DNA from: Candidatus Peribacteria bacterium
GTDB lineage: Bacteria > Patescibacteriota > Gracilibacteria > Peribacterales > Peribacteraceae
Assembly: GCA_023245935.1 (NCBI GenBank)
Contig: JAHFJM010000002.1
Location: 97,135-161,134 of the forward strand
DNA length: 64,000 bases
Reading direction: 5' to 3'
Below the pieces are notes generated by a model. The model was not told where the DNA came from, did not search any database, and saw only the letters and a list, made by a program, of their open reading frames with translations. A program made the position numbers and the translations under genes. Each line of letters opens with the position of its first letter. Position 1 is the stretch's first letter. This document shows, one piece after another, positions 10,970-13,188 of this stretch.

Positions 10970-11545
10970 TTACGCAATCGCCTTTTCTACCTGTGCAATC
11001 GTCTCCGCCAACTTCCCTTCGATATTCTTTATTTGCACATCGGTCTCGGGAGCAACGGCAAGTTCTTTCTTCATGCTTCCGATTCTGCGACGCAGTTCCT
11101 CCGGTGCCATTGGTGCACGACCTTGAATGTGTTTCAGAAGCTGCTCTTCACTCTCAGGAAGAATAAAAATTGTATACAGCTTGTACGTCTTCCCTGAAGC
11201 AAAATACGGGTGACAACGGATACTCTGAAACCCCTGCACGTCGACTTCTCGAATGACGGTCTTCCCCTGCTTGATCGCGGGAATAATTTCACTGACCAGC
11301 GTGCCATATCGAGCACCCTTATGTACTTGTGCCCATTCAAGAAACTCTCCTTCTTTCCACCACTTCGAAAAATTCTCTTCGGACACAAAGTGATACAGAT
11401 CGTCGCTTTCTCCTGCACGTCTCGCTCGTGTCGTTGCTGAACGCGGAAAGACATATTCCGGGTGCTTTGCCTTCAGCGCCTTCAGAATCACGCTCTTCCC
11501 CACTCCACTCGGACCGATGATGAGGACAAGCTTGCCTTGAGACAT
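10970..11545 (-). CDS. gmk: Guanylate kinase
   Basis: 191 residues from the ATG at 11545. The P-loop GPSGVGKS is at 11-18, followed by RSATTRARRAGE, corresponding to the GMP-binding S-x-TTRxxRxGE motif, then YHFVSEENF and a lid region. It phosphorylates GMP to GDP. The open frame runs further upstream only because it crosses the repeat at 11574-11710, and the conserved P-loop context fixes MSQGKLVLIIG as the N-terminus. Confidence 0.95.
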   Translation of the reverse strand: MSQGKLVLIIGPSGVGKSVILKALKAKHPEYVFPRSATTRARRAGESDDLYHFVSEENFSKWWKEGEFLEWAQVHKGARYGTLVSEIIPAIKQGKTVIREVDVQGFQSIRCHPYFASGKTYKLYTIFILPESEEQLLKHIQGRAPMAPEELRRRIGSMKKELAVAPETDVQIKNIEGKLAETIAQVEKAIA

Positions 11546-11573
11546 GTGCGCATCGTAGCACTTCGCACACCGC

Positions 11574-11710
11574 ACCTCACCCCCGACCCCTCTCCCAGCG
11601 CTGATGCGCTTGGGGAGAGGGGAGCTTCGTTTCACATCCAAAAACATTTTGGCATGGCTTCCTCTCTCCCCTTTTGGGAGAGAGGTGGCTTCGCAGAGCC
11701 GGAGTGAGGC
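11574..11710. repeat. Double-hairpin dispersed repeat, copy D
   Basis: Starts with CCTCAC and ends with GTGAGG. It contains one CCCCTCTCCC...GGGAGAGGGG hairpin and one CCTCTCTCCC...GGGAGAGAGG hairpin. The same layout appears at 31866-31989, 37272-37399 and, reversed, inside aroA at 57354-57477. It lies between the gmk start and the RNA candidate's promoter. Confidence 0.75.
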
Positions 11711-11713
11711 GTC

Positions 11714-11742
11714 TTGCCCAAACTTCAAAAAAGATGTATACT
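11714..11742 (+). promoter_or_regulatory. Promoter of the putative RNA gene
   Basis: TTGCCC (11714-11719), 17-nt spacer, TATACT (11737-11742). The predicted start is about 11749. No plausible open frame begins just downstream, unlike other TATACT boxes in this window. Confidence 0.65.
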
Positions 11743-11748
11743 TATTGG

Positions 11749-12119
11749 ATTTGCTCTTTCAAATCCTCCAACACCTTTTCGCGGCTGAAACCGCAGGGAG
11801 AGAGATGGAATAGATGCGGAAAACCCAAAATATTCTATCTCCCTCCCTGCTCTTCCGGCCCAAATCGACCGAGAGAGTTCCCTTTGCCAAAACAGCGGAG
11901 GGACCTACAAAACACAAACATACGGCACCGTGCACGCCCAGATGCACGAGCGATTCCCGACTCCTCGGGATACAACAAATACACATAACGGAGCGATTCC
12001 CGCTTAGGATCGCAAGAGGTGTGGGGAGAGAGAGCGCCTGGTCGACGTTCTCGCTGCTCAATTCCTCTTCACAGAGAATTGAGTTCAAACCGGGCACTCG
12101 AAAGGGTGCCCGTTTTATT
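11749..12119 (+). ncRNA. Candidate structured non-coding RNA, ~370 nt, unidentified
   Basis: The stretch runs from a good promoter to a strong intrinsic terminator and has no credible ORF. Hairpins seen: GGATTTG/CAAATCC (11747-11766); GCGG/CCGC; a 19-position arm at 11794-11812 pairing with 11831-11849 with one mismatch and one G-U; CGTGCA/TGCACG; TCCCGA/TCGGGA; GCGAT/ATCGC; GAGAGCG/CGTTCTC; and CAATT-CTCT/AGAG-AATTG. A 12-nt direct repeat, GAGCGATTCCCG, occurs at 11948 and 11991. Hallmarks of RNase P RNA (GAGGAAAGTCC), tmRNA (tRNA-like ends) and SRP RNA were looked for and not found. It could be a divergent housekeeping RNA or a new class. Confidence 0.6.
12091..12119 (+). terminator. Intrinsic terminator with GAAA tetraloop
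   Basis: CGGGCACTC (12091-12099) and GGGTGCCCG (12104-12112) form a 9-bp stem capped by GAAA, followed by TTTTATT. It ends the putative RNA and overlaps the stop codon of the convergent gene at 12115. Confidence 0.8.
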
Positions 12120-13188
12120 GCCAATCAAAGTGCGTCCGATCGAGAAGAGGAAGAAGTGTGCTGAATGATTTTCCGTCCGACTGGAACGATGCCCGTATCG
12201 CAGGAACGAGATACGTCGGAGAACGGTCATCTTGTGGCAGGAGAAGATACACAATCTGCGCTGTGCTATACGTCACACTCGGTGCATTCTGACCTCTCGG
12301 GAACGGAAGAAGACCGCCACTCAAAAACCGCACTTCAAGCATCTGCGACGAAAGTGTTGGATAGTTTGATGCAGCAAGCACCTCGGGCGAGAGCAGAGAC
12401 ATCGTGGCACTGACTGCCCGATGCGACACCCGACCGATCTGCATGCTGAGCGCTGCAATTCCCTGTCCGTCGGCACCGATAACCGGAACCGCTCCGATCG
12501 TCATCGGCCACGTCACGAATGTTTTCTTCGGCTGGTCACCCGTCGCCTTCGTCTCGCTGATCTGCGGTGCGCCGTAACCCGTCAGATCGATATTCAGTGT
12601 TGCCGCGAATGTCTTCGCAAGTGCGAGGACTTCCGCATCATCTGCTCGTTCCGGAGGAGTGGTGCGCTCGGCTTGCAGCACGCGAGTGATGGTGAGCGTT
12701 CTCGTTGGTAGAGAGAGACTGACTTTCAGGAGCCCGTCGGCAGATTTGAACGTCTCGGTCTCGGGAAGCAATTGCATCTTCAGAGGATCAACCGGTGCGC
12801 GAAGGGAATGAAAGAGCGCACTCAGACTGCTTGTATCGAGCTCGGTGCCCTGATCGCGGTACACCGCAAGTTCCGCAGGAATGGCAGGCACAATCGACGG
12901 GGGAAGCACATACCGGTTCACCGGGTTCAGGGCTGCGCCACTCGCGTTCGTGAGTTGCGGACGCACAGGAATCGGACGACTGATGTCACCGAAGGCAAGA
13001 GACGCGAGAGCAGCGCGGGACGAAGACAGCGACTTTCCATTCGGAGAGAGATCACTCGGGGAAGAATTCGTCTGCCTCGTCACGATCAGAAATGCATTCC
13101 CCGCAAGGGAGAGCAGCAAAACGAAGCTCGCAACCGGCACAAGAATGCGTGAGAGAAAGGAAGCGCGCGTGAGAGTGTTTGTTGCCAT
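12115..13188 (-). CDS. Membrane-anchored secreted protein, unknown function
   Basis: 357 residues. An N-terminal hydrophobic helix (ILVPVASFVLLLSLAGNAFLIV) anchors it or acts as a signal, and the rest is predicted extracytoplasmic. It has a Ser/Pro-rich linker (SSPSDLSPNGKSLSSSR) followed by a folded region rich in alternating hydrophobic residues. No catalytic motif was recognised. The start at 13188 is divergent from the SLH gene at 13208, and the two share a ~20-bp region holding the TATACT box of the latter. Conserved hypothetical at best. Confidence 0.75.
   Translation of the reverse strand: MATNTLTRASFLSRILVPVASFVLLLSLAGNAFLIVTRQTNSSPSDLSPNGKSLSSSRAALASLAFGDISRPIPVRPQLTNASGAALNPVNRYVLPPSIVPAIPAELAVYRDQGTELDTSSLSALFHSLRAPVDPLKMQLLPETETFKSADGLLKVSLSLPTRTLTITRVLQAERTTPPERADDAEVLALAKTFAATLNIDLTGYGAPQISETKATGDQPKKTFVTWPMTIGAVPVIGADGQGIAALSMQIGRVSHRAVSATMSLLSPEVLAASNYPTLSSQMLEVRFLSGGLLPFPRGQNAPSVTYSTAQIVYLLLPQDDRSPTYLVPAIRASFQSDGKSFSTLLPLLDRTHFDWQ

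Follow-up and report, generated by a model that had tools for sequence, protein, structure and literature searches.

Very few large self-standing structured RNAs have been found in bacteria, and the lineage-wide ones, such as RNase P RNA, tmRNA, SRP RNA and 6S RNA, do basic work. The published consensus of the boxA antitermination element is GYTCTTTAANA, from a survey that left out non-coding RNAs (PMC5725501). rRNA operons, suhB and a handful of further genes are known to be targeted. Here we describe a locus at 11714-12119 on the forward strand of a 64,000-nucleotide stretch of Candidatus Peribacteria DNA (the window), which is almost certainly a real, conserved gene for a structured RNA. 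Judged by its sequence, it represents a previously undescribed RNA family, belonging to no family tested and categorically new as an RNA family. Our explanation as a whole, which we regard as probable, is that of a stable, Nus-antiterminated, trans-acting RNA of a new family encoded beside gmk.

A new structured RNA gene of ~370 nt had been proposed by the first-pass annotation, and this proposal is supported by the lack of any Rfam match, by the existence of homologs and by strong covariation. The proposed promoter, TTGCCC-17-TATACT, is present at 11714-11742 and is the sole sigma-70-like site within 11500-12300 (1 found, 0.2 expected in shuffles); it places the start of the transcript at an estimated ~11749. 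The proposed terminator, with a 9-bp stem and a GAAA tetraloop, is present at 12091-12112, and relatives have terminators at the equivalent place; terminator-like sites are less exceptional than the promoter (3 found, 1.0 expected in shuffles). The annotation had seen no credible ORF. ORFs do cross the interval, and we rejected a protein-coding reading, as the frames are unconserved and broken by single-base indels between close relatives of 80% identity. At least eight hairpins had been drawn; hairpins are indeed present, and the folding energy of 11747-12119 (373 nt) is -148.1 kcal/mol, compared with -104.5 +/- 5.2 kcal/mol for shuffles (z -8.4). The long arm placed at 11794-11849 corresponds to our P3. 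The repeated 12-mer GAGCGATTCCCG does occur at both 11948 and 11991, and we considered it as a functional duplication; the repeat is best put down to chance, because its copies lie in different elements (the P7 arm and the pseudoknot) and G001 and G002, the closest relatives, have GAGCGGCTCCCG in place of the second one. The boxA-like element, the H-type pseudoknot, the kissing contact between the P4 and P8 loops (L4-L8) and the divergent gmk neighbour were absent from the annotation. The features of the locus are as follows.

10970-11544, minus strand: gmk (guanylate kinase), divergent neighbour, conserved across families
11714-11742, plus strand: sigma-70-type promoter TTGCCC-17-TATACT, by sequence match
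11747-11766, plus strand: P1, small 5' hairpin GGATTTG..CAAATCC containing boxA, from the predicted fold and homolog comparison
11753-11763, plus strand: boxA-like antitermination element GCTCTTTCAAA, 10 nt after the -10 box
11765-11776, plus strand: 5' strand of P2, CCTCCAACACCT, pairing with 12017-12028 (predicted fold and homologs)
11793-11850, plus strand: P3, long arm GCAGGGAG...CTCCCTGC, predicted fold, found across homologs
11850-11877, plus strand: P4 hairpin, with loop region CGACC (11866-11870) as the 5' side of the putative kiss
11879-11903, plus strand: P5 hairpin TCCCTTTGC/GCGGAGGGA (predicted fold and homologs)
11907-11922, plus strand: A/C-rich single-stranded linker ACAAAACACAAACATA, conserved in alignments
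11929-11948, plus strand: P6 hairpin CGTGCA/TGCACG, with changes on both sides among homologs
11955-11970, plus strand: P7 hairpin TCCCGA/TCGGGA, with 97.5% of alignment cells paired
11971-11988, plus strand: second A/C-rich linker TACAACAAATACACATAA, conserved in alignments
11989-12013, plus strand: H-type pseudoknot, with stem S1 formed by CGG (11989-11991) and CCG (12000-12002), and stem S2 by GCGATTC (11993-11999) and GGATCGC (12007-12013)
12017-12028, plus strand: 3' strand of P2, AGGTGTGGGGAG (GGTAGGGAG in most homologs), from the predicted fold and homologs
12031-12051, plus strand: P8 hairpin AGAGCG-CCTGGTCGA-CGTTCT, whose loop GGTCG (12040-12044) would kiss CGACC of L4
12057-12083, plus strand: P9 hairpin CTCAATTC...GAATTGAG, from the predicted fold
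12091-12119, plus strand: intrinsic terminator CGGGCACTC-GAAA-GGGTGCCCG-TTTTATT, 9-bp stem (stem-loop 12091-12112)

In the predicted structure, P2 closes a multibranched body composed of arms P3-P7. On the 3' side of P7 follow, in this order, the A/C-rich linker, the pseudoknot, the 3' strand of P2, P8, P9 and the terminator. The pairing of P1 is weak and not kept in all relatives; its boxA sequence is kept. P7 is the best-conserved hairpin in the Peribacteraceae, and P3 has large extensions in some genera. Lineage-specific insertions, either of ~40-80 nt in the P4 loop or in the form of a large extra P3 subdomain (GUGACRCCAU...AGUCAC), were seen in loci L041, L038 and L039, and in L045, L047, L049-L051, L055, L059, L064 and L065.

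A search of related genomes, as suggested in the first-pass annotation, did find homologs: at the DNA level, 144 relatives yielded full-length homologs of 80% identity within the genus and pieces of 69-75% identity in other genera. The length of the RNA is ~370 nt in the window and ranges from roughly 300 to 550 nt among relatives. R1, a covariance model built on the 3' core, matched 40 of 353 genomes of the class, 38 of them in the window's own family, the Peribacteraceae. A second model (R2) was built from 17 distant members of the family, leaving out the window and its nearest kin; it matched 53 genomes of the family and picked out the RNA of the window at 11926-12059 (E=7.5e-15). Together, R1 and R2 find the RNA in ~56 of the Peribacteraceae genomes, which number at least 73; most have one copy, the few second matches being weak. 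The 56 include a doubtful match by R1 only, in G058, which is without the P2 motif. The R2 matches on C16 of G323 and C54 of G327 are not beside gmk and were not counted, the gmk-anchored copies on C6 and C69 being the real homologs. The weak second or off-site R2 matches (G323 C16:6958, G327 C54:7139, G059 C39:8566 and G023 C4:76711; E 1e-4 to 6e-3) are either chance matches or second copies. Neither model matched the other ~17 Peribacteraceae genomes, which may point to a dispensable RNA or to insufficient sensitivity of the models. Among named records, the P7-linker pattern occurred only in Peribacteria/Peregrinibacteria or unassigned Patescibacteria, and a scan of viral contigs found none.

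Covariation among aligned relatives, the other comparative analysis suggested by the annotation, is strong for the helices, the pseudoknot and the L4-L8 contact alike. RNAalifold applied to six sequences showed compensatory changes in 24 of 89 pairs. In an alignment of 17 sequences, 86% of the cells in five helices are standard-paired, compared with 76% in shuffles and 19-53% in slid versions, and the covariation score of 0.344 (0.202 in shuffles) was reached by 0 of 500 shuffles; the structure was read from these same 17 sequences, so the relevant controls are the shuffles and slides. The pseudoknot was misaligned by MAFFT on mixed clades and was scored sequence by sequence against shuffles. 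By this measure, in 35 of 39 homologs no more than 3 of 40 shuffles equal or exceed the native score. Of 25 gmk-anchored regions from other families, 10 also have the pseudoknot, with GTAGGG/GTAGAG after it, and their shuffles score zero or well below. Its stems are kept while their sequence changes completely, from CGG/CCG and GCGAUUC/GGAUCGC in the window to GAGC/GCUC and GGCAC/GUGCC in L046, UGACC/GGUCA and UGGGAUU/AAUCCCA in L058, and AGACCUU/AAGGUCU and GGUGG/CCACC in L145.

In almost all lineages inspected, the P4 and P8 loops are complementary to each other although both have changed: CGACC/GGUCG, UGACCA/UGGUCA, CGACUA/UAGUCG, UCGACUC/GAGUCGA, CGAUUA/UAAUCG, CCAACA/UGUUGG, CGACGA/UCGUCG and CGGCAG/UUGCCG. 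For 18 sequences the mean score of native L4-L8 pairs is 14.6, compared with 10.5 for swapped pairs, and 0 of 200,000 permutations reached the native value; in a previous test, made largely on family members, the figure was 1 in 100,000. The hairpins were picked by eye and then verified by exact match, and the permutation ignores kinship. Simple inheritance of the match is argued against by the variation of the loops from family to family. CGACC, the L4 half of the kiss in the window, shares some of its positions with the P4 stem. The two loops are separated by ~170 nt in the window and by 140-300 nt among loci, a moderately constant distance. As far as can be read from the sequences, the shape of the RNA is kept, including a pseudoknot and a loop-loop contact, while almost every letter has changed.

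The A/C-rich linkers raise the question of whether the RNA serves to titrate a protein, as 6S RNA does for RNA polymerase and CsrB for CsrA. The linkers would then bind an RNA-binding protein, and the arms would merely present them. Two or more ACAAACACACA-like linkers are present, their position is conserved across families, and they are more constant than the adjacent helices, as this explanation would predict. However, a titrating RNA has no need for a covarying pseudoknot and kissing contact, and from one family to another the linkers shift from ACAAACACACA to ACAAAAACAAA. We consider titration unlikely; it and an RNA-only assembly are the leading alternatives to our explanation.

An assembly consisting of RNA only, in which the L4-L8 contact is made between molecules to give dimers or oligomers like those of OLE, ROOL and GOLLD, is distinctly unlikely in our view. 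Ornate RNAs of unclear function that form homo-oligomers have been documented (PMC12286853), and covarying kissing loops fit contacts in trans as well as in cis. Yet self-complementarity is not a general property of the loop pairs, and with L4 and L8 a moderately constant 140-300 nt apart in one molecule, a contact in cis is simplest.

We compared the trans-acting RNA that we propose with known families. With all Rfam 15 models at gathering thresholds, cmscan returned only tRNAs in the window, and relaxed thresholds on the interval added nothing beyond microRNA-like and other chance matches, far below gathering; the microRNA matches to P3 (best E 0.0007) were dismissed as chance matches of a long hairpin. 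There was likewise no family match in 31 homologous loci (20 divergent homologs and 11 loci of other families), which is the outcome of the Infernal/Rfam search that the first-pass annotation had proposed. The annotation had looked in vain for the core motifs of RNase P RNA, tmRNA and SRP RNA, in keeping with the absence of any model match in the interval, but had allowed for a very divergent housekeeping RNA. RNase P RNA (RF00010) is encoded elsewhere in the source genome, at C6:179766-180129 (164 bits, E=1.9e-53), as is tmRNA (RF00023), at C4:180441-180841 (102 bits, E=4.1e-41); ARAGORN found no tmRNA in the window. The 6S RNA model (RF00013) does not match the interval and has a weak candidate at C6:80260-80414 (40 bits, cut-off 46.4). 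By Rfam, neither the window nor the homologs contain sequence or structure homologous to OLE, GOLLD or ROOL. We found no prior description of the RNA in the open-access literature, the scope of our search.

That the RNA is a known housekeeping RNA in very divergent form, notably an unrecognised SRP RNA, is quite improbable. What speaks for it is that RF00169, the model of the small bacterial SRP RNA, leaves the SRP RNA of the source genome and of 57 family genomes unaccounted for: it found nothing in the former and one chance 20-nt match in the latter. In a control, Bacillus subtilis, which has a large SRP RNA, likewise gave no match with RF00169, so a lack of matches to this model need not mean that an SRP RNA is missing. 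The SRP RNA of the Peribacteraceae is either large-type, very divergent or absent. Against the present RNA being the missing molecule, no Rfam 15 model matches the window or its homologs, and inspection of the homologs by eye revealed no conserved GGAA-capped hairpin with the internal loops of SRP domain IV; RNase P RNA and tmRNA are, as already mentioned, located elsewhere.

The guanylate kinase gene gmk is visible in 33 loci, where it lies beside the RNA in 33 of 33 and is divergent in 32. The sole rearranged locus is L056, in which gmk is downstream and on the same strand. In divergent loci, the distance from the start of gmk to the 3' strand of P2 is 304-575 nt, and the synteny also holds in f2 and f20 loci whose gmk has an identity of only 44%. 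With gmk as the anchor, we inspected the divergent side in 25 genomes of other families and found the RNA in 10 of them, from families f2, f4, f9, f18, f20, f21 and f33. It was unrecognised at gmk in sampled members of the TGA-recoded families f10, f12, f14 and f22, and in those of f6, f7, f15, f16, f23 and f27. One gmk-divergent region (L151, G290 of f18) has the linkers and P3 without the pseudoknot and is possibly a decaying copy. Several gmk-anchored loci are followed by what appears, by eye, to be the end of a convergent ssb gene. Inverted repeats, CCCCTCTCCC...GGGAGAGGGG, are located at 11580-11690, immediately upstream of the window promoter; they look like a dispersed repeat, because L036 has similar CACCCCCAAACCCCTCTCC sequences at the equivalent position and L065 has them downstream. 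A cis-acting element for gmk or for the downstream gene, to which this constant proximity might point, is very improbable: transcription of the RNA leads away from gmk and stops at a terminator of its own, the next gene 3' of the RNA in the window has the opposite orientation, and L056 has gmk on the other side.

The proposed free-standing RNA starts with a candidate boxA. The window element, GCTCTTTCAAA, departs from the published consensus at one position. A TTGC/17/TATACT-like promoter with GYTCYTTNANA 9-10 nt after it is present in 34 of 41 homologs (0.66 expected). Family f9 (L150) has the exact consensus, GTTCTTTAACA, and in family f18 boxA is farther from the -10 box, which argues that the element itself, rather than its spacing from the promoter, is conserved. 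No clear boxA was found in the gmk-anchored loci of families f2, f4 and f21 and of one f33 genome. In the source genome, the one genome inspected in this respect, boxA-like sequences also occur at the start of RNase P RNA (CATACT-9-CGCTCTTTGA) and tmRNA (TATACT-10-TGTTCTCTGAAA), and the 16S rRNA leader contains TTTTCTTTGAAAAT (loci L026, L027 and L094 for RNase P RNA, tmRNA and 16S rRNA). These elements suggest that Nus antitermination may apply to stable RNAs in general. A scan of the whole source genome for a generic promoter/boxA pattern at fixed spacing was uninformative, with 19 matches compared with 13 in the reversed control. We judge it likely that the RNA at 11714-12119 is subject to boxA antitermination, which in Peribacteria and their relatives would then serve stable non-coding RNAs besides rRNA.

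We propose the following mechanism. A free-standing, stable non-coding RNA would be transcribed from a constitutive-type promoter and closed by an intrinsic terminator. NusB and NusE (S10) would bind the nascent RNA at boxA, within its first ~fifteen transcribed bases, and the polymerase, now Rho-resistant, would finish the long untranslated RNA, as on rRNA. The L4-L8 kiss and the pseudoknot would lock the RNA into a compact body acting in trans, as a ribonucleoprotein core or a catalyst. An antisense regulator is disfavoured by the preserved shape with freely changing letters, a combination that typifies RNase P RNA, tmRNA and SRP RNA, not pairing regulators. By this analogy, we lean towards a trans-acting ribonucleoprotein or catalyst. 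Our confidence is evenly balanced on the wider proposal of a class-wide, vertically inherited housekeeping RNA without counterpart in other bacteria, forming the core of a ribonucleoprotein or ribozyme under rRNA-type Nus antitermination. Given that it occupies the same place in at least eight families with reduced genomes and has a covarying tertiary fold, the RNA is likely to be important to these small, probably host-dependent cells.

How does this RNA compare with known systems? With rRNA leaders it shares the boxA sequence and its position close to the start of a long transcript that is not translated; the known Nus targets are rRNA operons, suhB and a few genes, whereas here the element, as read from the sequence, would serve a free-standing non-coding RNA. 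RNase P RNA and tmRNA are likewise stable, housekeeping-type RNAs with pseudoknots and, in the source genome, have a boxA-like element ~9-10 nt after the -10 box, but both genes are elsewhere in the genome and neither model matches here. Bacterial SRP RNA (RF00169, RF01854) is, in its large form, of similar size; here no domain IV motif was seen and no covariance model matched. In build the RNA resembles OLE, GOLLD, ROOL and the raiA-motif RNA, which are also free-standing, several hundred nucleotides long, multibranched and pseudoknotted, with a conserved shape and a function that, as here, is wholly or partly unclear. Those RNAs belong to other bacteria and have no Rfam match to ours, which is shorter than OLE, ROOL and GOLLD and is set apart by its boxA start and its gmk neighbour.
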